In this document: one piece after another, positions 12,952-39,998 of the stretch
Layout of the letters: the number at the start of each line of letters is the position of its first letter
Numbering within the stretch: the stretch's first letter is position 1
Virus record (IMG/VR): IMGVR_UViG_3300006990_000059
Coordinates: 1-42,394 of that record
Reading direction: 5' to 3' (one strand)
DNA from: a virus
DNA: 42,394 nucleotides
Program-made: the position numbers and the translations under genes
Notes under the pieces: model-generated
The model's input: the letters and a program-made list of their open reading frames with translations, nothing else
Told to the model about the DNA's origin: nothing
The model's database searches: none

Positions 12952-12962
12952 TTTACTCCAAA

Positions 12963-13453: not shown

Positions 13454-13478
13454 CTTACAAGTTCATCAGGGCTCTTCA

Positions 13479-13691: not shown

Positions 13692-13692
13692 T

Positions 13693-21135: not shown

Positions 21136-21138
21136 TTT

Positions 21139-22701
21139 TTAGAATTCCAGAACTACCTTAATGTCTTCTTTTTGGCGAGAGTTTCTCGCAATTGATGGTC
21201 TATTGTCTAGGTATATAATTTCACCTGTCCTCTTATTTATCTGTGGGTTTGCTATTCCATCTGTGAAGTTAACTCCCAAGTTGACAACATTGTTTCCAAG
21301 GATTGTCGTGATTCCAGCAAAGGTAGTGTCAACTGATGCTGAGAATCCACCATCAGTTGTAATAGACTCTGCAGATGATTCAAAATTCACATATTTTGAT
21401 TCAGAAGTAACACCGATATAATCGCGTTGTGTTCCAGTAGTTTTATTAAAGTAAAGTGTTCTATCTTGAATATATTTAATTACGTTTGTTTCTTCGTCAA
21501 AAGATGCAACGTATGCAACAGCTGTTGTAGTACCTACAATTTGCTTAATTGTATTACCAACGACTAAACTGCCAGATGGATTGATAACTTTAATTTGACC
21601 AGTTGAACTAAAGTCATTAGAAGTGAAGTTAGATGTGGATCCAAAAGATGTTGGATTTTTTACAATACCAACTTGTGCAAATTGAGTGTCTGTTGGAAAG
21701 TTTTTAGTTGAATCATCAAAACGTCCATAAACTAAAACTTTTTCTGCGCCAAGTTCTGTGTATATGTCAAATCCATGACCTTTAGAAGGTGGAATAATTG
21801 GAATTAGTTCAGCAAACTCAGTTAAACTACCACTTTGAATTGGTCCTAGATCAATAACACCATAACTATATCCACTACCACCAGCAGATATTTGAGCATT
21901 GATTATTCTTCCACTAGTATCAGTAGAAACAACAACTTTTCCTCCAGTTCCATCACCAAGAATATCTAATTCAACATCAAGACCTAGACCATAACCAAAT
22001 CCAGCATTCTTAATTGAAATTGTTTTTAACTGATTATTATTTACATTAGAATCACCATTATCACGAATAACTGAAATTTGTGGATCAATACTATTTGACC
22101 AATTTGGCGGCAAAGTAATGTATTCAGTTGAGTCAAATTTAATAATATCTGATGGAGAAACTGTAAACAGATATTTCCAAAAATAACCATCACCACTATT
22201 ACCAGCCTTAGTTGGTTCTAGATCTGTGAAATTTGGTTCATCTTGAGATGAGTTTCCAGAAGGGTTTGAAGGTGTTGCTCCGTTTTCAATACAAATATAA
22301 ACTCTGAAATCAGAATTCATTACATAATATCTTGCATCATAAAGTCTGGTTGATCCAGTAACTGGTGATAGATTATTTAAACTATAGTCATGACGATATT
22401 GCTCATAAACATTACCTTGTTCCCAATCAACTCTTTTAATAACTCTACGAATATTAGCAGGGGTAATTTTTCTACCAAACAGCATCGTATCATAAGCATG
22501 ATTGCTGTAATTGAAATTATCAACTGGGCTAGGAGGACCAGAAGTGTTGGTATTCCAATCAGATGTTCTACCATACCCAATAGATAAAGTTGGGTTTGGT
22601 AGAGACGTAAAGATGAAATATGAATTATTAGAATTCTCAACGGAATCAATAAAATTATTGACATTTAAGATTCTAAACTGATCCGTTACAATAGCCGCCA
22701 T
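21139..22701 (-). CDS. gp8: Baseplate wedge protein gp8
   Basis: This 520-aa protein matches cyanophage gp8, a wedge subunit of the baseplate. Conserved parts are the N-terminal YFIFTSLPNPTLSIGYGRTS, MLFGRKITPANIRRVIKRVD, GDGYFWKYLFTVSP and the end IIYLDNRPSIARNSRQKEDI. T4 gp8 is 334 aa. The extra length is a beta-rich middle (about 220-420) that includes a double GxGY module (about 220-287) of the type also found in gp14 and both giant proteins. AGGT lies upstream of the ATG, and an exact late promoter octamer lies 27 bases away. Confidence 0.93.
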   Translation of the reverse strand: MAAIVTDQFRILNVNNFIDSVENSNNSYFIFTSLPNPTLSIGYGRTSDWNTNTSGPPSPVDNFNYSNHAYDTMLFGRKITPANIRRVIKRVDWEQGNVYEQYRHDYSLNNLSPVTGSTRLYDARYYVMNSDFRVYICIENGATPSNPSGNSSQDEPNFTDLEPTKAGNSGDGYFWKYLFTVSPSDIIKFDSTEYITLPPNWSNSIDPQISVIRDNGDSNVNNNQLKTISIKNAGFGYGLGLDVELDILGDGTGGKVVVSTDTSGRIINAQISAGGSGYSYGVIDLGPIQSGSLTEFAELIPIIPPSKGHGFDIYTELGAEKVLVYGRFDDSTKNFPTDTQFAQVGIVKNPTSFGSTSNFTSNDFSSTGQIKVINPSGSLVVGNTIKQIVGTTTAVAYVASFDEETNVIKYIQDRTLYFNKTTGTQRDYIGVTSESKYVNFESSAESITTDGGFSASVDTTFAGITTILGNNVVNLGVNFTDGIANPQINKRTGEIIYLDNRPSIARNSRQKEDIKVVLEF

Positions 22702-22727: not shown

Positions 22728-22735
22728 TATTTATA
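22728..22735 (-). promoter_or_regulatory. T4-type late promoter before gp8
   Basis: The minus strand reads TATAAATA, an exact match. It lies in the 41-base space between the giant gp7-position gene and gp8, and ends 27 bases before the gp8 ATG. It separates transcription of gp8 and the 2480-aa gene from the very long gene upstream. Confidence 0.8.
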
Positions 22736-22742: not shown

Positions 22743-25700
22743 TTATAGGAAGATAATTTTACTTAGACTACCAGTGTTTCTAAGTCCCAATCCACGTCTT
22801 GATATTGAAGAGAAAGTTGTTAACCCAACATCAACGATATTTCCGCTTACGGAAATTGAAAGTGGAATATTTCCTCTAGTAAATCCAGAGAGTTTACCCC
22901 AAGAGAATTCACCAATATTTGCACCAGAGGTTTGGGCAATTGATATAACGTTTGTGTCAGATTTGATATTACAAGTAATAATACCTGTATTACCTTCAAT
23001 GTTAAATGCGTTCACTGTATAGATGTTATCTAACAGATTTGTTCCGATTCCAATTATATCGGAATCATCCACATTAACTGATGTGACTCCAGATCCAGTA
23101 ACAGTACCCTTAACAAGAATTGGATAACCTTCTAGTAAAGTTGGTAGTAAAGATACAGGGCCAGAATTATTCAAATCAACTTGAAGTTTAAGTGCAAGAG
23201 GATGACTACCAGTTCCAGTTGTTGTACCGATTCCAGTAATAATACCTGCGTAACCAAGAATAATATCTGCATTAGCAATAGATTCAGTTTCAGAAGCAGG
23301 GATTTCTACAATTGCTTTTGGTGGATTAGTTGGGTCATAACCTAATCCTTCATTAGTAATTGTTACTGAAGTTAATATTCCACCTGATGCACTACCAGTT
23401 AGAATTGCAGTAACTCCAACTCCGATAATTCCATATTTTGGATTGTCAACTTTTGTTGGATTTGCAATAGCAACTTCAATAGGTCCGTCAGTATATCCAG
23501 AACCAGCATCTACAATAGTCACTGCTGAAATTGTTCCACCAAGTGATACTGTTGCTGTGACTGCAGCCGCGACGGGATCGTTATGTTTAACAATGAAACC
23601 ATCTGCAACAACTAGACCAGTGTTTCCTTCATCTTGCTCATATCTAAAGAGATCTGCACTTTCAAGGAATATTTCAGAGTCAGATGCACCAAAGTCTTTA
23701 ATGACTTTGCTGGTTGGCATGATTTGTGCTTCAAGTGTTTCTCTGATTTTTGGTTGGTTTTGTTCAGAGATGATGATATCTTTCTTCTGCCTGGTAAATG
23801 AGATTGGTCTGAAGACGTTTGAATCGATACCTTGTCCTCTATAGACATTTGTTTCAATGTCGGTAGAGTCCTTAATGGAGAAGATTGTTCTTTCATTCTG
23901 AGTAATGGTTTCTGTTCCATCAAACTTCTTGAGTTGAACTTGATCTCCAGGTTTTACAGTCTCAAATACTGTAACAATGAAACTATCAACGCCTCTAGTT
24001 CCTCTATAGAAATAGATGGAAATTACATCAGATGGGCCTGGTGGTGAAGTGAAGTTGAAGTTGAAACTTGTACCACCTTCAAAGAAGTAATCCTTTTTGG
24101 GCACCTGAACAACACCGTTAACAAAGATCAAGAGAACAGAATCCAAGTCGATCTCAGCTGATCTTTGGTTTGTAGGATCTGTTTGGAAACTTAGAGGAAT
24201 ACCATTCAAGTTAAGTGGGAATCTAGTTCTAGTTCCATCTTGAAGACTTCTGATTGAGTCAATATAATCAATTTCTCCAAAGTTCCATGAAGAGAAAGTG
24301 TCACTAAGAATTTCAAGAACTTCAAAATTGAGTTGTGAATATTCAGTTCCTACTCCTGCTGCAGTAACAAGTCCAACTGGAGTAAAGATATCACCTCGTT
24401 TGAAGGAGAATCCAGCAGCGGATAATTCATAGTTAACAATTCCAAAGAGATCTGTTGCAAATCCAACAGTAGCAGCAGATCCAACTATACAGTCAACTTT
24501 TACACCTAATCCAGTTTCTATTGTAGCTCCAATGCCAGGTCTACTAACACCTTGAATTGGAAGATCAGAGTATGATGGTGTTTCGATTTGAATTGTTGGA
24601 TTTGTGTATCCAGATCCCTCACCTTCGATATTGAAGGATAAGACACCACCATCGTTTACAGTTGCTACTACTGTTGCAGCAGCGCCAGAATGACCTTCCT
24701 CTTCAACTACAACATCTACAGTATTGAAGTAACCAGAACCGAATGTCAAGTAATTGTATACTGCAACCTCAGCGTCTATACCACCTTTTCTTCTATTTGG
24801 AACAAATGTATGTGCAAATCCAACTTTCAAGACATCGACTATAAATTGTGTGGGTGATATGATAGTTTCAATTTCATATGGCCCAACTGATTTGACACCA
24901 AATACAACACCATGATCATCATAGATATGATCAATTGTAGAAACTCCTACATTAGTGATAATTTTGTTAGGAGCAGGAAGATCAAAGATTTGGAATTTTG
25001 ATCCTTGAGTTCCATCTGGGAAAATTGAAGTTGTGATGCCAATTCTAACCTTACCAGTTCCAGAAACATACTCGTGAGCAATTGTAGAAATACCTACGTT
25101 AGTAACGATTGATGTTCCAGAACTTCCGGCATTAACATTAAAGTAGAAACCTTGAGTTCCGTCTGGGAAGATAGTTGTTGTCACGCCTGCATGAGGAGCT
25201 GCACATGAGAACTCAATATCGCGAAGCATTACCAGATCACCATCACTTAAACCATGATTATCTGCTGTTAGGATTGTACTAACGCCAGTTGATGCGGTGT
25301 AATCAAAGTCGTAGATAGCAATCTCATTACCATATGCAAGACAAGTCATTGCAATTCCAGAGAGATTAATTATCTCCCCAATAGCAAGACCGCTATGATT
25401 TTTCTTAGTAGTAATAGTTGAGAATCCAGTTGTCTTATCATATTCAAAGTTTTCGATTGCAAAAGGAATTCCTCTATTATCTGGGAATCTAGTGGTCGTA
25501 AATCCAGTTTCAACAGTACCACCACCAACATAAGTATGTGCAAAACCGACAGGATTTACATTAGTGACGAATGTTGTTGGGCCAACAATTGAATTAACCA
25601 AATAACTATCAGCGTATGTTACGCGATTTAAATGTCCACTATTATCAACATATGTGTGAGCAATTGTTGATGGTCCGACATTAACTGTTAGTGTTGTTGC

Positions 25701-28700
25701 TGAAGTTGCAGTAACTTCAAATTCATCAATTACAGTATCTGGGAAGATAGTTGTAGTGACTCCAGAGTGCTCAGAATCACATGAGAATTCTAGATTTGCC
25801 AATCTGACAAAAGATCCAATTCCAATTCCATGAGTTCCCTTTGTAGTGATAGTACCAACACCGATAGACTCGGTGTAATCAAATGCGCTAATACCCCACT
25901 GAGTACCAATATCACTTGGGAACCTATCAGTAGTAACACCAATTTCTACTGCAGCCTCACTTGTTCCAGTTGGAATATGAGGGATAGTGGAAACGCCAAC
26001 CTGCACTTCAAATTTAGTTGTACTTGGTCTCTTAGTTACAACATTAAAGACTCTACCATTTGTTCCATCTGGGAAGAATGTTGTAGTGACACCAGCATGA
26101 GGAGCGGCACAAGCAAACTCAAATCTTTCAAGTTTGACTTGCATACCAGGATTTAATCCATGAACAAGGCTGGTGGTAATCGTCATGATACCAACAACAT
26201 TGTTATATTCAAATGTGCTAACACCAACTCTCTTATTGTAAGATCCTGCAGGGCAGATCATCTGTAAACCATCAAACTGAACTCTCATATCCTTATTCAG
26301 GTTATGATTTCCAGATGTTGTTACAGTCATGATTCCAGATACATTATCATAATCAACAGTAGAAACACCAACTAGACTGTCATAGCCACTAGTGCAATCA
26401 AACTGAATGTTTCTCATGTCTAAGAAATCATTAATAGTAAATCCATGAGGTCCAGCAGTAGTCACTGTTCCGAGACCACTTGTTCCATCGTAGATAAAAT
26501 CAGTGATTGTTGTATAAGTTCCTACAGTATCAAGACCAACGATATTAGTGATAGTACCACCAGCACCAACCTCAGCAATAACCTTAGCTCCAACTAGAGG
26601 TGCTACTCCGATTCCACCAGAAGATGCAACAGAAACAATTACACCACCAACTGGCAGTTTGTTTTTAATAGCATCAAGTTCACTGAGATAATCATCACCA
26701 GTTATCAGTTTAGTTCCACTGAATACTACTTCTACATCATCTACGTTAGATACAATTGAATATACATTCAGAGGGTTGTTATCAGTTGATTGACCCTGGT
26801 GAACACCATTAAGGAAGAGTAATCCACTTCCACTAGAAGTATCGAGACCAACAGGATAATCTCCGCCATTAACACTTAGTGCAAACGTTTTACCAATACC
26901 AGTGAATTCAGTTGAAATATCATCATAAAGTTCATTCGTACCGTAATCACTCTTTAGATAAACACGCCCATTAAATTCAGATCTAGTAAATGATAGCCCT
27001 CTATCATCGGTAACGAAGTCACCACCAGAACCTTTAGGTGTATCAACAAAGTGAATATCACTTTCTACAATGTTATATGATCCTCTGTGAACAATTGCTG
27101 TTCTATTGCTTTCATGAGCAGCTTCTGTTGTTCCAACAAATCCTCTAGTAACATTTACAAGTGGGAAAGTACCAACACCAGTAATTGGGCCAGTTCCTGT
27201 CGTACCAAATCCAACATTCAAGATGTTCATCAACTCATCATCAACCTTTAGAATATAATCAGGAACAAGAGTTGAGATACCAGATAGTGCAAGGAATGTT
27301 CTACCAACACCAATTTCTTCAATATTCTTATGTGTGACTAGTGTTCTAGAAATAGGATCTTGAACAACACCATCGAGAACAATCAATGATTTTTCAAGTT
27401 TTTTGGTAGTGTCAATTAGATGACTATTACCTTCACCAATACCTGTTGGTGAAATTCCAAGACCTTTTATAGCAAAGTCTTTCTTGGTAGCAAGTTTAAT
27501 GTTGTTATTATCAATTCTAATTACAAATAGATCCTCTGGTAGAATATTTGTGGTAACTCCAGAGAAATAAGACTGTCTGCTTGTAGTTGCCGTAGCCACA
27601 ACAGACATTGTAAGACCAATTCCAAGTCTTTCGGAATAATATGTACTACCAATACCAACTGGAACATTATTTGCAACAGTGAGAGATCCTGCACCAATAG
27701 CAGTAACAGTTCCAAATCCAGTTTCTGTGACAAGTTCACGAATTGTATCACCAATCGCAATAACTGAAGTGTTTGCAACTCCAGTGATAACTTTAGTTCC
27801 ATCGGAATCTCCGAGGAAGAATCTGAATGTGCTTCCAATACTTACAATAGTTGCACCAGATCCAACACCAGGTCCAAAGAACTCTTCACCAACAGATATA
27901 CCTGAACTATTGCTTGCTGAAGAAACAACATTTGATCCACTTCTAATATCACCGATTAAACTTTCACCACCAGCGGTTGTAGATCCAATAGTAATTGATT
28001 CTGAATTAATTCCGATGATAGATGATCCAGGTGTATACTTGATATCCTGGCCATTATTCATGAAATGACTTTCTAGGAAAATGTTTCCTGATGTCTGATC
28101 AAATACTGAACTATTTGTAGGATTAAATCTTCTTGCAAAAATTGGATAACCTTCATATTCTAAAGTGAAACTAGTTCTGTCTTGTGGAGTGTATTTTGCC
28201 TGTATAACAAGCTCAATAGAAGTTCCAAATCCAAATTCTTCAATTTGTTTAATGTTTGTATCTAGATCACTGTAAACAATCTCACTAAATTCTTCAATTC
28301 TGATTTCATCACCAACATATCTTGCATCTGGTAGGAAAACCAACTCACAGAAAACTCCGTTATATTGAGTACTAAATGTTCCAAGACCAATTGATGTGTT
28401 TATACCCAATTGTGGATACTCAAGAACATAGGTATCTTTTTGACCAAACTCCTGAGCAAATAGAACTTGACTTAATGATTCAGTATTTCCACTAGAAACT
28501 CTAATGATTGATTTTGAGAAACGATCAATAATTGATGTGATTCCAACAACTGTGATACCATAACCAGCATTAATAGTTTCTTGAATTACATTAGATTCTA
28601 TTCTTGCTGTTCTTTCTGTACCATTTTGCTGTGTGGTAAGTTTAAAGTGTTCTGTTCTCAATCCAACGTTGGTGGTTGTGAATCCAACAACATTTGCTTT

Positions 28701-31700
28701 AACTGTTGCAGTATTTGAACCATCATTATGGAATTCTAATTTTAGAACATCATTTACTATATCGGCACCAAATGTACCAATAGGTGAGAAACTTAGCAAT
28801 CTTTCACTACTATCAAATCCATATTGGCCAAGAGTTGCATTGACTCCATCATGAAGAACCGTTATTTCTGCATATTGTCTTTCAGAAGTTGTATTATCTG
28901 TAACTTCAACATATGCAAACATTGAATTGAATTCATCAGTATCAAATCCAACAATTTGATCTGTAGATCCAGCTCCGATTACAGTGGTTACGCCGATCAG
29001 TCTTGTATCACCAATAACATTGGTTCCAATACCAGTAGGTCTTGAATCAAATAGTTGACGGAACGCTTTTATATCATAAGTTTTTTCTGAATTTGATGGG
29101 GTATATCTTAAAGCGATAGTTCCATCTAACTGAGAAAATTCTGTAGAAAATTCTCCTAGACTTTCTTTCTCTTCATCAAGATTTACTTGTTGTTGAGGTT
29201 CAGATTTAATATTTGATTTTTCTAGAAGGAAGGTATTATTATTACCATCAGTAATAACGACCAAATCATAAATTTGGAATGATGTCAGATCAACAACGTC
29301 AGTTACTACAACTGTAAATCTAGAATATCCTGTCCCAGCTGGGAACTTAATAATATCTACGAAATCACCAACTAAGTTTTCTCTATCAATAAATGATTCA
29401 CTGATATCATCAATACTCAGAACTCTATTAGTCAAACATTCAATAAAGTTAGTAAGTTTTTTAGTTCCAAACTTGATTGAATTTGTAGTAAGTTGACTGA
29501 TATTAGTTATATTCTGTTCGACATCAGTATCAACTGCAAAATCAAAGAAATTGTTAGTTGTTACATCTGATTCAGAGAATAGGTCAATAACTATAGATTG
29601 TGTGCCATCACTAATGAAATTAGTAGAAGCAGCTGCTACTGAATTGATTTCAGTGTCAGCAAAATTCTTTGTACCTGAAATATGTGCCAAACGATTGACT
29701 GGACCAATTAGATCATTAAATTTAACAGGACTCTTAATACTATATGCTAGTTTTTGATAATAGTCATTATCTGACATGACTTGAGTATCATCATTCAAGA
29801 ATCCTTTATTTGTCAACCAACCAAAGTTAATTGTAGATCCGCATCCAACATCATGGAAACCATCAAAAGTCTTAGTGTCTACAACTGTTCCTCTAGCTCC
29901 AGAGATTGAACCAAGAAGTTTATTTCCAACAACCAGTAGTAAATCACCCTTGGTTTTAAGGAATGCTTCATTAGAAGAATCAACTTTCAAAACAGTTTTA
30001 GTTGTTTCACCTAAGTCGTTTTCTAATAGTAAAGGTTCGTTATCAATAAAATTCTTACTGGCGATGTCTACAGAGAATGTTGGGTAAGATTCTTTCTTAA
30101 CAATAGATCCAAAGTTAACATCAGTAACACCAATTCCAGGAGATCCTGTTCCTACTCCAGTTAGATTAATTGTAACTTCAGCAGGGTTGACACCAGCATT
30201 GAAACTTGCAACTTCAAAGAATCTGAATCCATAGTTTTTAGAATTAAATCCATCGCCTTCTCCGGTATATTCCTGAATACCATCAACAAATACTTCATCC
30301 CCTGCTTGTAGTGGGCTTGTTGAGAATCCTAATACTGGAGTCACAACAGTTAGAGTCATAATTCCAGTTTGAACACTGTCAATCTTAGTAATACTTAGAC
30401 CATTATCATTAATCAAACTAAAGACACTATGACCAACACCCTGAAGACCACTTCCAGGATTAATGATCTCAACACCACTAATACTTCCAGAGTCTAATTC
30501 GGCAATGATACTTATATCATCAACTTGCTCAAGACTTACTGAGTTTACAAGGACTAAGTTTGGAGCAGTAATAAAGTTTTTCCCACCATATACTGGTATG
30601 ATATTATCAACAGAGAAGTAATTTGTAAGTTCATGTCTTGCTGGAATGTCAGCTACTGGTTTTAGAGTTTTATCAACAGCAAAGTCAAATCCAGGTTTCT
30701 CAACTTCAGTTCTATCCAACAAACCAATATTGGTTGATTTGGGAGAAATTTCAGCATTAACTCCTAAGGTTGTTGTAATTGTTGTTATTCCAGGAAGTTT
30801 GTCATAATTACTTCCTTTGTTCAAAATATTGAGTTTGGAAATTCCACCGAAGGCAGTAGTTGATTTTGTAGAATATTCTAACTTATCAACTTCAGTAGAA
30901 GTATAAGAACCTTTTTCAGGTTTTTCTGAAAGACTGACTAAGAATGTTGTGCCTGTAGTTCCTACTCCAACTACAGATGTTTTTATAGCATACTCACTAT
31001 CAACATATAGAATTCTTGAGAAATTATCTACTGAAATATCAGGTTCTACAAGAGTATTATTTGAAATTTTTTCTAAGTTATAATATAGTTGCTCTGGTAA
31101 ATACTCGTTAAACTTAACAGTAAAACTAGCCGTTCCCAGTCCAACAGTTCCAATTCCAGTCAATTCAAATGCTTCAGAACGTCCAGTTCCAACAAGTTCA
31201 TTTCTATAATCAGAATCATAGAAAATTCTAAAATTATAACCAGACAAGGAACTATCTGATACATCAAATTTGATATTATTATTTCTAGTTACTTTTATTT
31301 CAGGGTTTACTTTAGATATTGTATGTGAAGTTCCACCAACTTTGGTAAATTCAACTAATCTAATAGTTTCTCCTTCAAGGTCAGTTTTAGTTTCTGCAAT
31401 TGAGAATGCATCTGGATTATCAGAAAATACGAAATACTTTCCAGTATCAATACCAGTTGTTTCATTCGCATCATAGAATACCAAATCACCAGTAACTAAA
31501 CCATGACTCTCGATATTAAATCTTGAACTTGATAAACCAACTGAAGCTGAACTGAAACCAATGGGATCAATAATAGTATTTTGAGTGAACTCATTGAATA
31601 ATACTCTTACTGCTGTTGATGTTCCAACACCAACTGTTAGATTTGGTTTTACATTAAATCTAACTTTATCATCTTTTTCAAGACCATGAGAAGATGCTGT

Positions 31701-34700
31701 CGCTACTCTTGCAGTTAATCTTTCTACTCTACCAGTTACCTGCTTATGATCTGATGTGATTTGATATTCATAATCGTTCGTATCACAGGAAACGAAATTA
31801 ATTTCTGCAGAATCTAAAGTAGTTTTAATACCAATGATATTTGTGCCTTTATTGACAGCATATACTAGTTGCTCATTGCCAGATAAAGGAAGAGTAAATG
31901 TATATGCAGCACCAACTGTAGATACTGCAATAGCATTACCAGATGCTGGTTTTATAATCTTAATTGGTTGATTATCTGTAAATGTATGATTCTCAAGATA
32001 AATTGAATATGTTGGAACACTTCTATCAGTTGTTGCACCACTAACAACATAATCTGTATCAATTGCGATACCTAGAGTAGTTCCAAATCCGACGGCTTCT
32101 TTAGGATTGAAATATACAACATCATTTGGTGTAGAATCTAAAGTTGAACCATTAAAATTAAATATTATTTGACTGGATTTTACTAATATAGGAGCTCCAA
32201 CAGTATGACCAGTCCCAGAGGTTCCTCTTACTGCTCTGATTATGTTATTAAATGAACCAGAAGTGTTGTAGATATTGAGAACTTTAAAAGTTTCATCATC
32301 AATTTGAAGTTCAGAGTTTGGTCTTAAGAACTCTGGGACATTCGAGACGGGTATGTCTGTGGTTATACCACCAACAAATTCTGCTACTATGTTATCAGTT
32401 AAACTAAAGTCGTCAGATGGAACTCCAATAGTCACATCACCAGACAAATTAGCAACATAAGTTGAGAGACCAGAAATTTTAACAATATCATTCGGTTCCA
32501 AATCATGGAATGTTGAAATGAATCCAGCTACCTGATTTCCATTAAGGGTTTCAAATACAAATTTATCATATGTTAAGAATTCCTCTGTTATACTATTAAC
32601 AAAGTCTCCAGTAACTTCTGAGACTTGAGCAGATGCTGATCCACCAGTTGTATCACTATTATCAAATACAACATTATCACCAATTTGATAATTTGATCCT
32701 TTCTTTACAATAGAAATATTTTGTATTTCACCTGTTCTTCTAGACCTTACAATAACCCTTTGACTATCAAAACTATAAGGTTGAGTAAAGAAGTTATAAT
32801 CAGCACCAGCTTCAGAAACATTGTATGGGAAAGTATTTCTAATTAATTCATTTCCAATAAAATCAAAATTTTGATTTAGTGATACTGAAGATCCTGCAAG
32901 ATTTTCTTCAATAACATTAGATCTATATGAATCACCAATGAAATATGGGAAACTAGATGCGAGATCTCCAGTTAATGGATCTAGTTCTAACGTTGCAAAG
33001 TATGCATAAGTTCCGTTTGGAAACTCTGGTGTTTTGGTAAATTTACCATTGTGCTTATCTAAGTCGCCAGAATCAGTAAACAAATAATCTTCAGCAAATA
33101 ATCCAGATTCAAATCCACTTGGTCTATTTGTGACTTGATTGATATCAATAATATAACCAGATTCAATTAGTTTAATAGCAGAAGTTTGATCATTTGAATC
33201 TGTATAACCAAAACATCCATAAATTGGATTTCCGTCATATGCCCATCCAATTAGTGGTGAGTGCTTGGTGTTATCAGTGTCTTGGAAATCTGATTGTAAT
33301 TTTGGACTATATCCAACAACAGCATATTGTAAACCGTTTTCACCTTTATCAATGATAGCTTCACCACCATAATCTTTAAATCTTGCTCTGCTGTTGAGAG
33401 TTAGACTTCTAATAGCTGAACGTAGAACTGCTCCACTTCCTCTTGATACTGGTTCAATTTTAGTGTCTGAGAAAACATAATTGTTACCACTCGCAATAAC
33501 AACTACATCTATAACCTCACCATTATCATTAGTAACCGCTCTTGCTATACAACCACTTCCAGATTCACTAATGATACTAATATCAGGTGGAGAAAAATAG
33601 TTTTTTCCTGGTTGTGATACTAAAATATCAATAATCTTTTTATCAACAATTACCGCTCTAAATTCTGCTCCAGTTCCGTTATCAATACTTACAGCTGGTC
33701 TATTGTGGAAGTTTAGAACTTTAGATCCATATGATGTTCCACCATCATAAAGAAGGGCATCTTTTATACTGCCTGTTACAATAGGAGTAGCTGTTACAAC
33801 ACCCACAGTATTTGCAATGGATACTGAAATATCAACTGTGATTTCTGGATAGTTGAATACGTGAAGACCTGTTCCAATCCCAGCGATTTTTTCAGTCAAT
33901 CCTCTATCAAAATTAGTATTGCTAGTTCCTGCAACACCAGCGTCTGCAATTCTAAAGCTGTTATCATCTACTTTGATAACATAATACTGATTGGATGCTG
34001 ATAGATTAGGAATCTTATCACCAGTAGCACTATATGTAATTAACTCACCTGTAGAATAACCATGATCTTTAAATGAGAATGAATTATTTGATGTTGAGAT
34101 ACCTGTTGTTTGAATAGCAACTTGTCTATTTTCATATCCAACCCCACCATCTAGAACAACAACACCAGTTAATTGCTTGGTTGATTGTGCAGTTCTAAAT
34201 TTATGTAAACCACCACTGTTATTACCAGTACTAAAACCAACAGTGTTTATACCACTATTAAAATCCGATTCATTCTCGTATAATCTAAAAGATACTGGAT
34301 CGATAACTTCGGTAAAGTACTTACCACCAGTTTCTAGGAAATTACCAGTAACACTAGTCAATCCAAATCCAGTGACTCCTAAAGATCTGTTACCATTTGG
34401 ATCATAGATAATTTCTTGACCATTTCCAAAATTATGATTATTGGTTGTTCTAATAAAATCACCATAAACGGAGACGCCACCACCATCAGAGGCATTTTTA
34501 CCATTAAATCCAACTTCTCTAAATTGATCAATTACAATTGGTTCGACTAAAGCCCCAGTTCCATTACCACCACTTATACTGATGCTTATAACTTGATCAA
34601 TATCAAAGTCTTGTGGATCAATAAGAATATCTTTAAGGGTTCCTGATACAGCAACATTTGCCAGAGCAGTATTTCCAGAATTATCCGAATCTGCAATGAT

Positions 34701-36977
34701 ACATTTTGGTGGATTGATTACATCATAATCAGATCCAAAATTGAAAACACTAACTTTTTCAACGGGTCCAAAAAATACTTTGTCGTCAATTTTATAATTT
34801 GTAAGTTCTACACCATTTTTAAGAATACCAGAAGCTCCAGCAACTGTGCTGGTTTCACTACCAGTATCTAATGATCTTATCAATGAAAACTTCTTTAGAA
34901 CCTTTTGTGGAGAAATCTTCTTATCAACTTGTTCTGATAATGAGAAGAAGTGAGATCCAGTATTTCCATCATCAGGAACATTTAGTTTTACATTGATATT
35001 GGTATCAATGAATGATCTAGCAACATAAAGCTTTATTTTATTGTTCGGTGATTGAACTTCAACAAAATAACTTCTACCAAACTCTAAACCTTTAATTGGT
35101 TCAGTTGCAGTTCCAGCAGAATAAATTACCTCATCACCAGTTATAAAAGGAACAGTATTTGAAAATGAAATATTATTGTAATCACCAAGTGAATCTTGAT
35201 CATCAAGAGTTCCAGAAGATATTGATGCCTCAGCAATTGAGGTTTCAATTTGATTTAGATCAATGTTGTAATCAGGTAAAGAGTTGGATGCAACATAAAG
35301 AGTACTACGATCTTTTTCAATATATGTGTTCAACACATTTGATACTATAGCATTATTACCATAGTTCAGTTCAATACCACTACTAGATGCCTTCTTGATT
35401 TGTCTTCTAATAGCATATGATCTACCCTGCACCAAATCGGAAATATTACCACCAGATAATACAACTTGCTTATCACCAGTGATTGTAGCTGTGGTTAATC
35501 CAACAATAACATCAAGAGTTTCTTTATTGATAACTTCTACATTATCACCATCACTAAGGAATGCATCATCTAGACTTCTTTCTAGAACAAATACAGAACC
35601 ATTAAAACTTTGAACGTTTATACTTGATGCAGTATTATATTTCCAAGAGTTGAATGAAATCTGTTCGTAAGTTTTATTAGCTGGAGGATTTAGAATTTTT
35701 GAACCAACTGTTTTGGTTCCATAAACTTCATTTATGTTTGCGTTGAAGATATCTTCCTGTGGATCAAATTCTGATATTACGCCAGTTAACCTAAGTTCTA
35801 CTTTTTCATTAGTATCACTTGTATATCCATATGCAACGTCATTGGTTCTAATATTAGTAGCAGGTGCCATGTTTGCAGTAACACCAGAACAACCTAAGAA
35901 TTGATTAATAGTTTTATCAGTGTATGTAATGACATCACTGCCATTTCTTAACACACCACTCTGAGGGAATCCAATGGTACTATCTACCAAAATTACATCA
36001 CTTCCAATGAGAGTATCCCCAATGGTTTTTGAACTTGGTGTTATAGAGAAGTTACCATCAAAACCAGGAGCTGGTTCCTGATATCTTAGGAATAGAGAAA
36101 CCGTATAATATGTAACTCCACCTCTAATAGTTGATTCTACTTCAGATATAGGAGCTGAACAACCACCAATATCTGGATTATTGCTATTACTATCCTGGAA
36201 TAGTGTTTGACCAGATAATTTGGATGGATCTCCACCACCAACCTTTTCGGTCAATAGTACTAGTCTTTTTCTGAATGATGCTTCAGACAGTTCAAGTAAA
36301 AACTCTGACTGCTTTTTAACTTTTGAGTTTTGGCCAAATAATATTGATATTAGAGTATTGATTGATTCAGCAGTACCCTTAGACTGATAGAATGACTTTA
36401 AATTCTTAACTAAGTTGTTTACATTTACATCTGAATCAAAAGATTCGTTTTCAAATCCAGGCGCATATAATACTTTTAAGTTTTTAAAATATTCTCGTAA
36501 AAATAGTGTACTAAGGTTAGTTACACCAATCCCTGTAGTATGGTCTTTGGCGCTGGTATTGTTAAATGTAACCTCACCATCATTATATTCACTGATACCA
36601 CTAAATCCACGAACACAACCCGTGAATGAATTGGTTGTGATTCCACTGTAATAAATTATCTCATCGTTAACTTGAAAGATACCATCTTTATTAGGATATC
36701 CTTTTGTAGATAATACATTGATAACTGTATCACTACTAGAGACATCTGATGTCAGAGTAGTAATGCCAGAAACTACTTCTGGAGTTATATTATCAAATTT
36801 TAAATATTGATCTAAATTATCAATTAGATCTGCAGGAGAGCCCTGAGAATCTTGTGATTTATAATACTGTTTTAAAAAATCAACCGCCTTTGGTGTTTCT
36901 AATGAAACATAAGATGGTAATTGACTTTCAATAATTTGATTGACTTTTACTCTTGTATCAAATCCAGTTTCTATCAT
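22743..36977 (-). CDS. Giant baseplate/tail protein in the gp7 position (4744 aa)
   Basis: This single open frame of 14.2 kb lies between gp6 and gp8, where T4 has wedge protein gp7 (1032 aa). The N-terminal 1-70 (MIETGFDTRVKVNQIIESQL and following) plus FLREYFKNLKVLYAPGFENE and KSFYQSKGTAESINTLISIL form a helical base that should anchor it in the wedge. The rest is beta-rich and modular. Visible units are RG-x-x-G/H modules (73-148, 316-382, 1532-1597, 3227-3300) and HGxxxGDxVxY units. GxGY units occur at 739-812, 1072-1149, 4072-4139 and 4472-4549. A tandem repeat block covers about 3490-3990, and an FVNGVVQVPKKDY module about 4249-4326. AAGG precedes the ATG. I infer a long wedge arm or fibre; gp7 identity rests on position. 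Confidence 0.93.
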   Translation of the reverse strand: MIETGFDTRVKVNQIIESQLPSYVSLETPKAVDFLKQYYKSQDSQGSPADLIDNLDQYLKFDNITPEVVSGITTLTSDVSSSDTVINVLSTKGYPNKDGIFQVNDEIIYYSGITTNSFTGCVRGFSGISEYNDGEVTFNNTSAKDHTTGIGVTNLSTLFLREYFKNLKVLYAPGFENESFDSDVNVNNLVKNLKSFYQSKGTAESINTLISILFGQNSKVKKQSEFLLELSEASFRKRLVLLTEKVGGGDPSKLSGQTLFQDSNSNNPDIGGCSAPISEVESTIRGGVTYYTVSLFLRYQEPAPGFDGNFSITPSSKTIGDTLIGSDVILVDSTIGFPQSGVLRNGSDVITYTDKTINQFLGCSGVTANMAPATNIRTNDVAYGYTSDTNEKVELRLTGVISEFDPQEDIFNANINEVYGTKTVGSKILNPPANKTYEQISFNSWKYNTASSINVQSFNGSVFVLERSLDDAFLSDGDNVEVINKETLDVIVGLTTATITGDKQVVLSGGNISDLVQGRSYAIRRQIKKASSSGIELNYGNNAIVSNVLNTYIEKDRSTLYVASNSLPDYNIDLNQIETSIAEASISSGTLDDQDSLGDYNNISFSNTVPFITGDEVIYSAGTATEPIKGLEFGRSYFVEVQSPNNKIKLYVARSFIDTNINVKLNVPDDGNTGSHFFSLSEQVDKKISPQKVLKKFSLIRSLDTGSETSTVAGASGILKNGVELTNYKIDDKVFFGPVEKVSVFNFGSDYDVINPPKCIIADSDNSGNTALANVAVSGTLKDILIDPQDFDIDQVISISISGGNGTGALVEPIVIDQFREVGFNGKNASDGGGVSVYGDFIRTTNNHNFGNGQEIIYDPNGNRSLGVTGFGLTSVTGNFLETGGKYFTEVIDPVSFRLYENESDFNSGINTVGFSTGNNSGGLHKFRTAQSTKQLTGVVVLDGGVGYENRQVAIQTTGISTSNNSFSFKDHGYSTGELITYSATGDKIPNLSASNQYYVIKVDDNSFRIADAGVAGTSNTNFDRGLTEKIAGIGTGLHVFNYPEITVDISVSIANTVGVVTATPIVTGSIKDALLYDGGTSYGSKVLNFHNRPAVSIDNGTGAEFRAVIVDKKIIDILVSQPGKNYFSPPDISIISESGSGCIARAVTNDNGEVIDVVVIASGNNYVFSDTKIEPVSRGSGAVLRSAIRSLTLNSRARFKDYGGEAIIDKGENGLQYAVVGYSPKLQSDFQDTDNTKHSPLIGWAYDGNPIYGCFGYTDSNDQTSAIKLIESGYIIDINQVTNRPSGFESGLFAEDYLFTDSGDLDKHNGKFTKTPEFPNGTYAYFATLELDPLTGDLASSFPYFIGDSYRSNVIEENLAGSSVSLNQNFDFIGNELIRNTFPYNVSEAGADYNFFTQPYSFDSQRVIVRSRRTGEIQNISIVKKGSNYQIGDNVVFDNSDTTGGSASAQVSEVTGDFVNSITEEFLTYDKFVFETLNGNQVAGFISTFHDLEPNDIVKISGLSTYVANLSGDVTIGVPSDDFSLTDNIVAEFVGGITTDIPVSNVPEFLRPNSELQIDDETFKVLNIYNTSGSFNNIIRAVRGTSGTGHTVGAPILVKSSQIIFNFNGSTLDSTPNDVVYFNPKEAVGFGTTLGIAIDTDYVVSGATTDRSVPTYSIYLENHTFTDNQPIKIIKPASGNAIAVSTVGAAYTFTLPLSGNEQLVYAVNKGTNIIGIKTTLDSAEINFVSCDTNDYEYQITSDHKQVTGRVERLTARVATASSHGLEKDDKVRFNVKPNLTVGVGTSTAVRVLFNEFTQNTIIDPIGFSSASVGLSSSRFNIESHGLVTGDLVFYDANETTGIDTGKYFVFSDNPDAFSIAETKTDLEGETIRLVEFTKVGGTSHTISKVNPEIKVTRNNNIKFDVSDSSLSGYNFRIFYDSDYRNELVGTGRSEAFELTGIGTVGLGTASFTVKFNEYLPEQLYYNLEKISNNTLVEPDISVDNFSRILYVDSEYAIKTSVVGVGTTGTTFLVSLSEKPEKGSYTSTEVDKLEYSTKSTTAFGGISKLNILNKGSNYDKLPGITTITTTLGVNAEISPKSTNIGLLDRTEVEKPGFDFAVDKTLKPVADIPARHELTNYFSVDNIIPVYGGKNFITAPNLVLVNSVSLEQVDDISIIAELDSGSISGVEIINPGSGLQGVGHSVFSLINDNGLSITKIDSVQTGIMTLTVVTPVLGFSTSPLQAGDEVFVDGIQEYTGEGDGFNSKNYGFRFFEVASFNAGVNPAEVTINLTGVGTGSPGIGVTDVNFGSIVKKESYPTFSVDIASKNFIDNEPLLLENDLGETTKTVLKVDSSNEAFLKTKGDLLLVVGNKLLGSISGARGTVVDTKTFDGFHDVGCGSTINFGWLTNKGFLNDDTQVMSDNDYYQKLAYSIKSPVKFNDLIGPVNRLAHISGTKNFADTEINSVAAASTNFISDGTQSIVIDLFSESDVTTNNFFDFAVDTDVEQNITNISQLTTNSIKFGTKKLTNFIECLTNRVLSIDDISESFIDRENLVGDFVDIIKFPAGTGYSRFTVVVTDVVDLTSFQIYDLVVITDGNNNTFLLEKSNIKSEPQQQVNLDEEKESLGEFSTEFSQLDGTIALRYTPSNSEKTYDIKAFRQLFDSRPTGIGTNVIGDTRLIGVTTVIGAGSTDQIVGFDTDEFNSMFAYVEVTDNTTSERQYAEITVLHDGVNATLGQYGFDSSERLLSFSPIGTFGADIVNDVLKLEFHNDGSNTATVKANVVGFTTTNVGLRTEHFKLTTQQNGTERTARIESNVIQETINAGYGITVVGITSIIDRFSKSIIRVSSGNTESLSQVLFAQEFGQKDTYVLEYPQLGINTSIGLGTFSTQYNGVFCELVFLPDARYVGDEIRIEEFSEIVYSDLDTNIKQIEEFGFGTSIELVIQAKYTPQDRTSFTLEYEGYPIFARRFNPTNSSVFDQTSGNIFLESHFMNNGQDIKYTPGSSIIGINSESITIGSTTAGGESLIGDIRSGSNVVSSASNSSGISVGEEFFGPGVGSGATIVSIGSTFRFFLGDSDGTKVITGVANTSVIAIGDTIRELVTETGFGTVTAIGAGSLTVANNVPVGIGSTYYSERLGIGLTMSVVATATTSRQSYFSGVTTNILPEDLFVIRIDNNNIKLATKKDFAIKGLGISPTGIGEGNSHLIDTTKKLEKSLIVLDGVVQDPISRTLVTHKNIEEIGVGRTFLALSGISTLVPDYILKVDDELMNILNVGFGTTGTGPITGVGTFPLVNVTRGFVGTTEAAHESNRTAIVHRGSYNIVESDIHFVDTPKGSGGDFVTDDRGLSFTRSEFNGRVYLKSDYGTNELYDDISTEFTGIGKTFALSVNGGDYPVGLDTSSGSGLLFLNGVHQGQSTDNNPLNVYSIVSNVDDVEVVFSGTKLITGDDYLSELDAIKNKLPVGGVIVSVASSGGIGVAPLVGAKVIAEVGAGGTITNIVGLDTVGTYTTITDFIYDGTSGLGTVTTAGPHGFTINDFLDMRNIQFDCTSGYDSLVGVSTVDYDNVSGIMTVTTSGNHNLNKDMRVQFDGLQMICPAGSYNKRVGVSTFEYNNVVGIMTITTSLVHGLNPGMQVKLERFEFACAAPHAGVTTTFFPDGTNGRVFNVVTKRPSTTKFEVQVGVSTIPHIPTGTSEAAVEIGVTTDRFPSDIGTQWGISAFDYTESIGVGTITTKGTHGIGIGSFVRLANLEFSCDSEHSGVTTTIFPDTVIDEFEVTATSATTLTVNVGPSTIAHTYVDNSGHLNRVTYADSYLVNSIVGPTTFVTNVNPVGFAHTYVGGGTVETGFTTTRFPDNRGIPFAIENFEYDKTTGFSTITTKKNHSGLAIGEIINLSGIAMTCLAYGNEIAIYDFDYTASTGVSTILTADNHGLSDGDLVMLRDIEFSCAAPHAGVTTTIFPDGTQGFYFNVNAGSSGTSIVTNVGISTIAHEYVSGTGKVRIGITTSIFPDGTQGSKFQIFDLPAPNKIITNVGVSTIDHIYDDHGVVFGVKSVGPYEIETIISPTQFIVDVLKVGFAHTFVPNRRKGGIDAEVAVYNYLTFGSGYFNTVDVVVEEEGHSGAAATVVATVNDGGVLSFNIEGEGSGYTNPTIQIETPSYSDLPIQGVSRPGIGATIETGLGVKVDCIVGSAATVGFATDLFGIVNYELSAAGFSFKRGDIFTPVGLVTAAGVGTEYSQLNFEVLEILSDTFSSWNFGEIDYIDSIRSLQDGTRTRFPLNLNGIPLSFQTDPTNQRSAEIDLDSVLLIFVNGVVQVPKKDYFFEGGTSFNFNFTSPPGPSDVISIYFYRGTRGVDSFIVTVFETVKPGDQVQLKKFDGTETITQNERTIFSIKDSTDIETNVYRGQGIDSNVFRPISFTRQKKDIIISEQNQPKIRETLEAQIMPTSKVIKDFGASDSEIFLESADLFRYEQDEGNTGLVVADGFIVKHNDPVAAAVTATVSLGGTISAVTIVDAGSGYTDGPIEVAIANPTKVDNPKYGIIGVGVTAILTGSASGGILTSVTITNEGLGYDPTNPPKAIVEIPASETESIANADIILGYAGIITGIGTTTGTGSHPLALKLQVDLNNSGPVSLLPTLLEGYPILVKGTVTGSGVTSVNVDDSDIIGIGTNLLDNIYTVNAFNIEGNTGIITCNIKSDTNVISIAQTSGANIGEFSWGKLSGFTRGNIPLSISVSGNIVDVGLTTFSSISRRGLGLRNTGSLSKIIFL
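25005..26500 (-). repeat. Tandem protein-coding repeats inside the giant gp7-position gene
   Basis: Encoded residues about 3490-3990 contain six copies of a unit of form Y-x4-G-x2-TITT-x3-HGL-x2-G-x-V-x-L-x4-F-x-C. Five or more also carry or are followed by G-[VIF]-TT-x2-FPDG. FPDG-type copies sit near plus-strand positions 25020, 25170, 25490, 25745, 25910 and 26070. The DNA copies have diverged, so the repeats are old or under selection for diversity rather than freshly duplicated. A conserved Cys in each unit is unusual for a phage fibre. Confidence 0.8.
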
Positions 36978-36978: not shown

Positions 36979-38892
36979 TTACCTTGTTAATTTGCCGTTT
37001 GAGTAACTTGAAGTAACTGGGAATCCGATTCCCGAAACTTGCTCACCAGAAGTGATTGTGTCCTTAACCATATTTATCGTGCTTTTATCTATTGACAATT
37101 CAACAAACAGATTTTCCAATCCAATAACATCATTACTTTCTGGAAATGCTTGTACTTCAATAGTTCCGTTTGGAAGAATGGTATTAACGATATTAACTGT
37201 AAAGATATTAATCTCTCCAGTCGTATAATTAACACTTCCAGCATTCTGTACTTTTACAGATGAAACGCCATTTTCATCAATAGAAATAAATGAAATGATA
37301 CCTGTCTCACTATTAACAACAGATGGTGTATCTGTCATATAAAGAGTAAAAGGAATACCAGCAACACTAAATCCTGTTGACTTAATATTCGCCCCAGATG
37401 GATTTATGTGAAACCGATTACCAAAGCACAACTCATATTGAGCTGGATTATTGAGGGCAGATCTCATGTTTCTTCTAATTTTCACTTTTGTAATATTAGA
37501 AGTAATAGAAGTGTCTGTAGAATCAATTACGTTTAGTAGTTTACTATACTTGAATCGGCCACCAAAATTATTAAGATCTTCTGATCCTGCAAATTCTGAC
37601 AAAGTAGATGTAACAGCACTCTTCAAGTTCTCTAAACTCGAAACTTTACTTCCATTGTAATAAACAAAAATATCTAATTCTACATTCAGAATTTCAAGAT
37701 CTACAATACTTTGTTTGATCCCAGCAACTGCATAATCTTTAAGTCTACCTAGGATCAATCCTTTATTGAAATCAGATACAAAGTAATCATTTTTTGGTTT
37801 GATTGAAATTTCAACCTCTCCAAATCTTGGAGGTGTCATTTCTTCACCACCAACTACAGAAACTGATTCTGCATCAGGAAACACTTGCTTTACAATTGCT
37901 TCGTAATCACTAGCCGTAACCGCCCTGTACTGCGATGAATACGTCTTAGGAGCAAAGTATTTAATAGACTGTATTGATTCAATCTCAGTCCCTCCTTGCG
38001 CCTTCTGGTTAGTCGTTACTACGACACTAGTAGTGGGAGAAATTCTTTCATCTGAACCTCCTCTTAGAACACCAGAGAAACTGAAATTTACAACTCCATT
38101 TCCTTCGATACCATTAGTTACAATGTAAGATGCAACAATTTGACTTCCAGTTTCTGGTTTCTTACCGATGACACCATCACCAAATAATAATTCATATTTC
38201 TCATCTCTTACTTCTTGCAAGAAGAAAATCTCTGATGAAGAAGTAATTTTGAAAACAGTATCAGATCTCACGTACTTATTATCAATACCTTGATCTAATG
38301 GGCCTTTAACTCCTACTCTAAGTGTGCTGGTGTCAATAGAAGCATTGTCAAGAATATATCTTTGATCTATAGATCGATCGACATTAAATTTCTTAATTGC
38401 ATATGATCCTTCATATACATCAATATCAGAGAATACTGCAGTCCTAGCACCAATCTGATTATCTAATGCATTATCTAATGGTGCTGTTGCGGTAACATCT
38501 TCTGGAATAGAAAATACGAAACTAGTGTTTTTGGTGTTTCCTACACAAACTAGTCCCGCTTTTAGCGTAACAGTTTGACTGGAACCAGAAAATTTTACGG
38601 AAAATGATATTTTTGACTTAGCTGCAGTGCGTGAACGCGGAGTATAACCAATATTACGAGCCAAAGAAACAACATTCTCTCTTAATGCTGCGGATTCAAT
38701 GAAAGATTCGTTGACAACCATGTTCGCATTGAACGAACTGATGTAAGTATTGTATGCAAGAGTGTCAATTAATACGGAAAAGTTTGATCCTTCAAAATCA
38801 AAGTCAGAAAAATCCGAATTTGCTCTTAGATAATCTTTAATTTGATCTCTTATTTGATCAAAATCTAAATTAGCGTACTTTGTAAATGGCAT
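36979..38892 (-). CDS. gp6: Baseplate wedge protein gp6
   Basis: This 637-aa protein matches T4 gp6 (660 aa), a core wedge subunit that dimerises around the baseplate and is related to the J proteins of other contractile systems. The N-terminal NSDFSDFDFEGSNFSVLIDT, LAYNTYISSFNANMVVNESF and NIGYTPRSRTAAKSKISF are strongly conserved. The middle AVTASDYEAIVKQVFPDAES is the J-like core motif. It starts one base after the gp25 stop and overlaps nothing. GAGG within the end of gp25 may act as the ribosome site. Confidence 0.96.
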   Translation of the reverse strand: MPFTKYANLDFDQIRDQIKDYLRANSDFSDFDFEGSNFSVLIDTLAYNTYISSFNANMVVNESFIESAALRENVVSLARNIGYTPRSRTAAKSKISFSVKFSGSSQTVTLKAGLVCVGNTKNTSFVFSIPEDVTATAPLDNALDNQIGARTAVFSDIDVYEGSYAIKKFNVDRSIDQRYILDNASIDTSTLRVGVKGPLDQGIDNKYVRSDTVFKITSSSEIFFLQEVRDEKYELLFGDGVIGKKPETGSQIVASYIVTNGIEGNGVVNFSFSGVLRGGSDERISPTTSVVVTTNQKAQGGTEIESIQSIKYFAPKTYSSQYRAVTASDYEAIVKQVFPDAESVSVVGGEEMTPPRFGEVEISIKPKNDYFVSDFNKGLILGRLKDYAVAGIKQSIVDLEILNVELDIFVYYNGSKVSSLENLKSAVTSTLSEFAGSEDLNNFGGRFKYSKLLNVIDSTDTSITSNITKVKIRRNMRSALNNPAQYELCFGNRFHINPSGANIKSTGFSVAGIPFTLYMTDTPSVVNSETGIISFISIDENGVSSVKVQNAGSVNYTTGEINIFTVNIVNTILPNGTIEVQAFPESNDVIGLENLFVELSIDKSTINMVKDTITSGEQVSGIGFPVTSSYSNGKLTR

Positions 38893-38893: not shown

Positions 38894-39295
38894 TTATCTG
38901 GTTGCCTCTAATACGAAGGAAAATTCTTGTGTTGGGGTATTCATTCCAACGATATCATATGCTATGACACACTCAAATTCATTTCTATCAGGCGCAGGCC
39001 TCACGTTTACAATGATATTGTCAACTCTAGGTTCATACTGTTCAATAACTAACTTGATTTCTTCTTGAATTTGAGAAGAACTTCCGAAGTCAACAAACTC
39101 AAACAACAAATCACGAACGGGTGAACCCAAATCAGAGTCAAAAAACCTTTCAGTAAACTGTGTCTGCACTAAATTGCGAACAGCTCTCTGAATTGCTCTC
39201 TCATTTTTTAATATAGGCAGATCTTTTGTGACAGGATGAGCCTCAAAAGACAAGGAAATGTCCTTAAACGCCCTTGAAACTCTCTGTGATGCCAT
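38894..39295 (-). CDS. gp25: Baseplate wedge protein gp25
   Basis: This 133-aa protein is of the GPW/gp25 family (T4 gp25 is 132 aa). It has a lysozyme-like fold and contributes to the inner baseplate and sheath start. Features are LKNERAIQRAVRNLVQTQFT, then ERFFDSDLGSPVRDLLFE and EPRVDNIIVNVRP, with the family's EPR core motif at about 88-90. It is the first gene of the baseplate transcript and has a late-promoter octamer 22 bases upstream. No Shine-Dalgarno is seen. Confidence 0.96.
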   Translation of the reverse strand: MASQRVSRAFKDISLSFEAHPVTKDLPILKNERAIQRAVRNLVQTQFTERFFDSDLGSPVRDLLFEFVDFGSSSQIQEEIKLVIEQYEPRVDNIIVNVRPAPDRNEFECVIAYDIVGMNTPTQEFSFVLEATR

Positions 39296-39316: not shown

Positions 39317-39324
39317 TATTTATG
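39317..39324 (-). promoter_or_regulatory. Late promoter candidate before gp25
   Basis: The minus strand reads CATAAATA, 7 of 8 to TATAAATA. It lies in the 31-base space between the 223-aa gene and gp25, and ends 22 bases before the ATG. It probably starts the long baseplate transcript (gp25, gp6, giant gene). Confidence 0.65.
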
Positions 39325-39326: not shown

Positions 39327-39998
39327 CTAATTAGGATATTCTGGTGAATCCTCACGTTCTTGTGCTGTCTTCCAGAAATATTCGTCTTCACGACCCATTC
39401 CAAGTCGTTCAAATCCATTTTCGACTTGGTAATATTGAGTCGAAACTTTAAAATCAGGTACTTTTGGTTCGACAGGGGTCAAGCTATTGTCAAAAATACG
39501 CAATCTATTGTTTGGATACAGTGCATACTGACCATTCTCTAGCTCAATTAGGTTATGAGACTTGTGTTCGGCAGGATTCTCACTGGTTGCCCAATCAACA
39601 TAGTCTGGATCATGATGATAGTTGTCAATAGTACAGACATAAGTACCTTTTACGTTTCCAAAGTCCCTTGTATAGCATTCAAAGTCCATTGATCCAATAA
39701 ATTTCTTATCTACTGAGACAACTCCATAATCCATACAGTTCCAAAACTGAAGGTTCGGTAGGTTCATGTCTGGACTTGGTGTCTCAGGGTCTGTTACAAA
39801 GGCACTGATAGGCAATTTATCGTACATGGCGGCATATTCTGGTAGATATGTCTCAAAATAAAAAGCACGCCCAGGAATCGATTTAACCGATACCCAGACG
39901 CCCTTTACAAATTCACCATGACCACTTTGATGATCAGTGAGATATTCTTTACGAACCCATACTTCTTGTGAGGGAAGATTGGCAATTAAACATGCCAT
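39327..39998 (-). CDS. Conserved-type cyanophage protein of unknown function (223 aa)
   Basis: I do not recognise a function. The protein is soluble and rich in aromatic residues. It has WVRKEYLTDHQSGHGEFVKG near the start, LQFWNCMDYGVVSVDKKF in the middle and an acidic C-terminal end (GREDEYFWKTAQEREDSPEY). There is no signal peptide or membrane segment. Its strong sequence character reminds me of a protein carried upstream of gp25 in other cyanomyoviruses; that is memory, not a search. It has no Shine-Dalgarno, and a weak late-like octamer (40021-40028) lies 23 bases upstream. Confidence 0.85.
   Translation of the reverse strand: MACLIANLPSQEVWVRKEYLTDHQSGHGEFVKGVWVSVKSIPGRAFYFETYLPEYAAMYDKLPISAFVTDPETPSPDMNLPNLQFWNCMDYGVVSVDKKFIGSMDFECYTRDFGNVKGTYVCTIDNYHHDPDYVDWATSENPAEHKSHNLIELENGQYALYPNNRLRIFDNSLTPVEPKVPDFKVSTQYYQVENGFERLGMGREDEYFWKTAQEREDSPEYPN

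Follow-up and report, generated by a model that had tools for sequence, protein, structure and literature searches.

A 4744-residue gp7 in a T4-like marine cyanophage fragment, with the wedge core at its N-terminus and a probable peripheral arm beyond it

In bacteriophage T4, gp7 is present as one monomer per baseplate wedge, six per virion, and takes part early in wedge assembly (PMC3004832). Heterotrimers equivalent to T4 (gp6)2-gp7 have been described as the wedges of phages XM1 (PMC10457771) and A-1(L) (PMC10966104), and spikes are reported to attach to the gp7-like gp17 of XM1 via an insertion in domain I and via the C-terminus (PMC10457771). Giant forms of gp7 are already known, the proteins of P-SSM2 and P-HM2 being annotated as such; they occupy up to about 20 kb in well-studied ocean phages, whose contact with the host is little known. 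The presence of this kind of protein in virions is taken from published mass spectrometry of two relatives, ORF122 of S-CREM2 (77594-83407; 91 unique peptides, 27.2% coverage; PMC10665884) and S-SZBM1_208 (6619 amino acids; 71 peptides, 13.5%, emPAI 0.41; PMC9146016), the latter matching the core profile described below with an E value of 6.2e-93. No marine cyanomyovirus baseplate structure was among the literature matches listed, and our literature search, the scope of which took in neither bioRxiv nor most subscription journals, found an N-terminal gp7 core of the giants stated nowhere. A further candidate source (PMC3426561) was set aside as irrelevant, its gp7 being that of phi29.

The window analysed here, a stretch of 42,394 nucleotides (IMG/VR record IMGVR_UViG_3300006990_000059), is a fragment of a T4-like marine cyanophage; the top-ranked records in a megablast search with positions 1-25000 were of Synechococcus phage S-T4 (68% query cover, 77% identity). 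Gene order was derived from PHROG matches, with T4 gene numbers given from PHROG names. On the minus strand it runs ferredoxin, gp25, gp6, the giant gene, gp8, VrlC, a small fibre-assembly-like protein and gp13, followed by gp14, gp15, gp16, two genes without an assigned function, gp17, gp18, gp19, gp20 and gp21. The giant coding sequence (22743-36977, minus strand) contains no internal stops and encodes a protein of 4744 amino acids (508 kDa, pI 4.55). The initial annotation, a single 14.2-kb gene more than four times as long as that of T4 gp7 and filling a third of the window, was exact in coordinates, strand and length: the gene takes up 14,235 of the 42,394 bases (33.6%), and its product is 4.6 times the length of T4 gp7 (1032 amino acids). 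It matches phrog_2885, 'baseplate wedge subunit', with an E value of 0, and is flanked by the wedge genes gp6 (36979-38892), the stop codon of which lies one base before the giant's ATG, and gp8 (21139-22701), as gp7 is in T4. The wedge gene gp25 (38894-39295) precedes gp6, and VrlC (phrog_358; 13693-21135, 2480 amino acids) lies downstream of gp8, where T4 has gp9-gp12; all four neighbours are on the minus strand. A ferredoxin-family gene (phrog_3704; 39327-39998) stands directly ahead of the baseplate cluster, the same place that a ferredoxin gene has in S-SKS1 and S-CAM1. The T4-type late promoter core ATAAATA occurs nine times in the window, over a span of 34-39323, versus a chance mean of 16.8. 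All nine sites are on the coding strand and four are just upstream of genes, at 39317-39323 (before gp25), 22728-22734 (before gp8), 13480 and 5948 (before gp18); as the total is below chance, promoters are suggested at most.

Several observations bear on whether so long a frame is genuine. When the stretch was simulated 100 times with a first-order Markov model, the longest run free of stops had a mean of 102 amino acids and a maximum of 182, versus the 4744 observed; the three codon positions have GC contents of 0.46/0.41/0.18. Four more IMG/VR contigs carry the frame open over its full length (4744, 4744, 4765 and 4760 amino acids), each sequence having been obtained by joining pieces of one contig through overlaps; the first two gave identical statistics and were therefore counted as one, leaving three distinct sequences. 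The frame is also intact in the isolate S-T4 (4749 amino acids). An assembly error joining two genes, which the initial annotation had named as a result that would overturn it, is thus excluded. For five pairs of sequences dN/dS was 0.31, 0.31, 0.28, 0.29 and 0.23, and in all five comparisons dN was the lower of the two in each 500-codon bin printed; dS to S-T4 was 1.2, near saturation. On these ratios, the whole length of the gene is under purifying selection. The earlier argument had been from the absence of stops, which does not by itself establish selection, but its conclusion agrees with dN/dS.

Profile alignment with hhalign was used to compare the N-terminus with gp7 families. A profile of ten sequences (the window, six cyanophage isolates and three contigs) aligned with six T4-type gp7s at a probability of 90.2% (E 1.5e-6), residues 189-295 pairing with T4 727-813, and the probability rose to 95.3% (E 2e-8) after addition of two cyanophages and of the gp7s of HTVC008M, Cr30 and phiM7, which act as bridges. 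Direct alignment of the cyanophage N-terminus with T4-type gp7 covers only 85-97 columns; the first helices reach 0.3% directly, yet in matching register (7-38 with 633-664), and are aligned through the bridging phages only. For the bridging gp7s themselves, the probability is 95.6% against T4-type gp7 (E 1.3e-8; 180 columns, 5-197 with 631-814) and 99.4% against the cyanophage N-terminus (E 3.3e-21; 5-185 with 9-296 of the window profile). They would therefore link the core in its entirety, with the helices, to T4-type and cyanophage gp7 alike. Reversed controls gave 0.0-0.1%, while gp6 and gp8 aligned with their T4 counterparts at 100% and 98.1%, respectively. Residues ~8-298 appear to correspond to the T4 gp7 wedge core (T4 ~631-814), split by a beta insert, with homology of the second helical part and the wing indicated by both hhalign and structural register. 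The gp7 reading of the initial annotation, for which a profile search of residues 1-300 had been proposed as a check, is thus borne out by gene position and by N-terminal alignment. We conclude that the giant is gp7, and that a wedge anchor at its N-terminus is well supported.

Searches with other tools were carried out on the same proteins. Each of the eight cyanophage proteins, when compared singly by BLASTP, gave a short match to one place in T4 gp7, seven of them within 730-762 and P-SSM2 at 720-787; six had E values of 1.7e-4 to 0.12, and those of S-T4 (1.1) and the window (1.7) are not significant alone. The 1016-residue HTVC008M protein, encoded between two annotated baseplate wedge subunits, matched the N-terminal profile with an E value of 1.2e-26, and tblastn with its first 422 residues found 268 phage records, mostly cyanophages, with Sinorhizobium, Rhizobium and Caulobacter phages and others among the remainder. 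A search of 50,697 phage records with the giant's N-terminal 659 residues found matches in 462, which bear the names Synechococcus, Cyanophage, Prochlorococcus or Marine, and the top matches in BFVD were cyanophage relatives, one labelled 'baseplate wedge initiator'. No gp7 was found when PDB sequences were searched with the N-terminus by itself, with its profile or with Cr30 gp7. In Pfam only the YHYH domain (see below) exceeded its cut-off in the giant, PF23786 Baseplate_wedge (185-223) and E1_FCCH falling below theirs. The T4-type peripheral domains (T4 1-630) were not detected in the giant, the best of eight blocks reaching 1.1% and aligning outside 1-630; these domains are not common to all gp7s, as the cores of Cr30, phiM7 and HTVC008M are also N-terminal.

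An AF2 model of residues 1-430, of low confidence (32 sequences, pLDDT 62, pTM 0.36), predicts helices at 8-59 (36801-36956, this and the following features being on the minus strand), which, going by the bridging alignment, would form the first half of the wedge core, the helix-turn-helix of the core bundle. They are followed by a small beta module inserted in the core at 72-154 (36516-36764) and similar to 326-363, by the second helical half (158-214) and wing-like beta part (235-298) of the core (158-298; 36084-36506), and by a second small beta module at 315-400 (35778-36035), the first of the putative peripheral arm. The 'helical N-terminal base' proposed earlier therefore holds for the helices, although in this model a beta module splits them. 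In a Foldseek search with the model, two chains taken as gp7 by entry and length ranked 4-5 of 350,542 (probability 0.63, E 1.5e-3 and 3.2e-3), below chains of the SSU processome and pre-ribosome, which are unrelated and took ranks 1-3. VIA-align gave Z 7.6 for 5iv5_BJ (rmsd 2.5, 85 aligned, 236-409 with 765-851), Z 7.4 for 9f4a_A0 and Z 6.6 for 5hx2_A; the last bears the name gp7, and for the other two this identity was assigned from the entry and the chain length. Scores as high or higher were reached, through small beta modules, by several chains of phage and cellular origin. Values of Z 7-8 are reached by unrelated models and are not decisive alone, but the three gp7 chains align in one register (model 231-236 with gp7 759-765), which in this model matches the sequence alignment within a few residues. 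Folding in segments, as had been suggested, thus yielded the wedge register at the N-terminus, albeit from a weak model and with two segments folded, 1-430 and 1085-1480.

The protein in the gp7 position comprises 767 amino acids in Cr30, 1006 in phiM7, 1016 in HTVC008M, 1032 in T4 and 1937 in S-CREM2; 3032 in S-CAM1, 3048 in S-PM2, 3515 in S-RSM4, 4314 in S-CAM7 and 4454 in P-HM2; and 4744 in the window, 4749 in S-T4, 5195 in P-SSM2, 6076 in Syn9, 6619 in S-SZBM1 and 6817 in ACG-2014d. Giant gp7s are ordinary among cyanophages (1937-6817 amino acids), the window lying in the upper middle. The core is N-terminal in the cyanophages, the pelagiphage, Cr30 and phiM7, and growth is C-terminal, with ~500 further residues inside the core, at about residue 110, in Syn9 and S-SZBM1. 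As one N-terminal core is common to proteins of 767 through 6817 residues, these phages provide a size series for testing the arm. The closest relative, S-T4 HOU04_gp197 (baseplate wedge subunit, 4749 amino acids), has the same position, length and modules and differs by sequence divergence only (65.6% identity over 4735 residues, no gap of at least 8 residues). P-SSM2 gp7, annotated 'baseplate wedge initiator', shares the core and the C-terminal block, as well as the YHYH block and most of the arm, but is longer (5195 amino acids; 38.5% identity over 4524 residues), lacks most of 3001-3150 and has a divergent array. T4 gp7 has the wedge core and gene position in common with the giant; it carries ~630 residues before the core, whereas the giant's core is N-terminal and its arm has no match to T4-type gp7. 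HTVC008M I899_gp055 shares the N-terminal core and the position, also alongside VrlC, at about one-fifth of the giant's length. The 242-residue gp17 of XM1, likened here by its published description as a gp7 ortholog with an N-terminal core, has separate spikes where the giant has fused modules (PMC10457771).

Annotation of this position varies among the records. I899_gp055 (33435-36485) is annotated 'head closure Hc2' although by core and position it is gp7, and three other genes in the HTVC008M stretch examined are labelled 'baseplate wedge initiator'. In P-HM2, another gene besides the one at the gp6-gp8 position is annotated gp7 (PHM2_094, 28551-33001) and lies away from that position. In S-SKS1 (NC_020851) the giant-gp7 region (12101-22292) is split over several frames, partly unannotated (20163-22292, 15427-20229 and 12101-15439), reflecting a sequencing error or a real break.

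Beyond the core, the most widely shared part is the block at residues 1060-1500, found in P-HM2, Syn9, S-PM2 and S-CREM2. Within it, residues 1233-1332 (32982-33281, minus strand) match the YHYH domain (PF14240) at 92.5 bits against a cut-off of 25. This domain is named after a Y-H-Y-H motif; in the 40 aligned sequences the motif reads Y-A-Y with F, H or Y as its fourth residue, and the alanine is invariant in all of them, which makes a role resting on the first histidine of the motif unlikely. Searches with a model of the YHYH block gave no convincing match in Foldseek (best E 0.37) or in VIA, where Z reached at most 5.0 and the rows were mostly Ig-like, at ~13-97. Residues ~3480-4065 (24783-26540, minus strand) form the sole clear tandem array, with phrog_17885/3442/1276-like repeats that are common to a tail-fibre PHROG; the repeats were mapped by profile windows because self-BLASTP gave no off-diagonal rows. 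Two close contigs, with 85-86% overall identity, are missing 46 and 49 residues of the array and have 25 and 83 other residues just after it, a pattern more suggestive of exchanged segments than of a plain change in copy number. The C-terminal block, residues 4190-4744 (22746-24410, minus strand), is conserved with S-T4, P-SSM2 and S-CAM7, has a partial match in Syn9 and was not found in P-HM2, S-PM2 or S-CREM2. Beta modules are predicted in both folded pieces, so the description of the protein as a chain of beta modules applies to residues 1-430 and 1085-1480, while clear tandem repetition is confined to the array. Residues ~198-271 of gp14 (window 10844-12112) share a beta module with residues ~1100-1172 of the giant, which the gp8 family also matches weakly; neck, wedge and arm may thus contain modules of a single family.

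Taken with the T4 and XM1 wedges, these data make it likely that the giant is the baseplate gp7 of a T4-like cyanophage in which an N-terminal wedge anchor is covalently joined to a largely beta peripheral arm directed to the host. In the core bundle of every wedge, its N-terminal helices would come together with two gp6 chains, so that six copies per virion would be expected, about 3 MDa together. The remaining ~4,400 residues, plausibly a long arm or fibre judging from their sequence, would extend from the wedge, still covalently linked to it, as a largely beta peripheral part. This part would reach towards the host surface and hold or act as receptor-binding parts, and would relay host contact to the wedge ring and sheath; we infer that the arm may be a built-in fibre or adhesin. 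The giant carries extra modules at the core insertion and at the C-terminus, the two places at which spikes attach to XM1 gp17. We therefore put forward, tentatively, that giant gp7s might unite wedge protein and phage fibre in one covalent chain, as long as ~6800 residues, from sheath trigger to host, with modules added or exchanged at the places where a simpler phage docks its spikes. If so, host contact would pull directly on the contraction trigger.

An arm that served mainly as a structural brace, between wedges or wrapped around the tail, with no role in host recognition, would suit a gene under even purifying selection along its length, with small beta modules common to gp14 and, weakly, to the gp8 family, and with no receptor-binding domain identified in the arm. 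Such a brace is harder to reconcile with the variation of segments of 3480-4110 among close relatives and the tail-fibre affinity of the repeats, with the mutations that S-PM2d081, the 3048-residue relative, is reported to have gained during host-phage coexistence in chemostats (PMC9910659), and with the TEM description of S-SZBM1, which reports no long tail fibres for a phage with a 6619-residue gp7 (PMC9146016). We consider a purely bracing arm rather unlikely.

The initial annotation had also suggested that the giant replaces several T4 proteins, and cyanomyoviruses have been reported to lack g10, g11, g12 and wac (PMC2984593). We searched 14 phage records (T4 and 13 others) for gp11, the gp9/gp10 family and VrlC. 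gp11 (PF08677) was found in T4 only and was missing from all 13 others, including those with a gp7 of 767-1016 amino acids. The gp9/gp10 N-terminal family (PF07880) exceeded its cut-off in three of the 14, T4, Syn9 (gp7 of 6076 amino acids) and ACG-2014d (6817), and was sub-threshold in S-CAM1 and S-CREM2. There was no PF07880 match in S-T4, P-SSM2, S-CAM7, P-HM2, S-PM2 or S-RSM4, in Cr30, phiM7 or HTVC008M, in which gp7 is of ordinary size, or in the window, which is a fragment. As gp11 is missing alongside short gp7s and PF07880 is retained alongside the longest, loss of gp9-gp11 does not track gp7 size. Moreover, when the giant's blocks (300-4744) were compared with single sequences of T4 gp9, gp10, gp11, gp12 and wac, none aligned, the probability being 2.3% at best. 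It is therefore improbable that the giant stands in for gp9-gp12 as well as gp7 in a single outer baseplate layer. VrlC (phrog_358), present in all 13 non-T4 phages, absent from T4 and accompanying gp11 loss, occupies the gp9-gp12 place and would be the likelier substitute for the outer T4 parts, although it has no detectable similarity to them.

A published interpretation holds, for pelagimyophages and cyanomyophages, that T4 gp7 is lacking and apparently substituted by VrlC (PMC7029224), which would leave the giant as a separate fibre or adhesin. This is very improbable: VrlC is ubiquitous among the non-T4 phages searched and abundant in S-CREM2 virions (ORF124, 450 peptides, PMC10665884; a phrog_358 match), but it reaches only 0.3% against T4-type gp7 in hhalign, comes after gp8, and in HTVC008M and phiM7 occurs together with a gp7-core protein, which contradicts substitution as stated in that source. 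We found neither homology of VrlC to gp7 as a whole nor, in HTVC008M and phiM7, absence of gp7 where VrlC is present. Identification of the giant as gp7 thus corrects the published claim of a missing gp7, through the N-terminal core, and separates the function of the arm from that of VrlC. Weak profile similarities link VrlC with the cyanophage gp7 N-terminus (20.3%; 72-129, the inserted beta module, with 2048-2108) and with the bridging gp7s (18.1%; 134-245 with 463-576), so that VrlC and gp7 probably share at least one beta module. Small phrog_358 matches also lie inside the gp7s of S-CAM7 and S-CAM1, and the VrlC profile finds matches in the control genomes of Synechococcus elongatus and Methanosarcina acetivorans.
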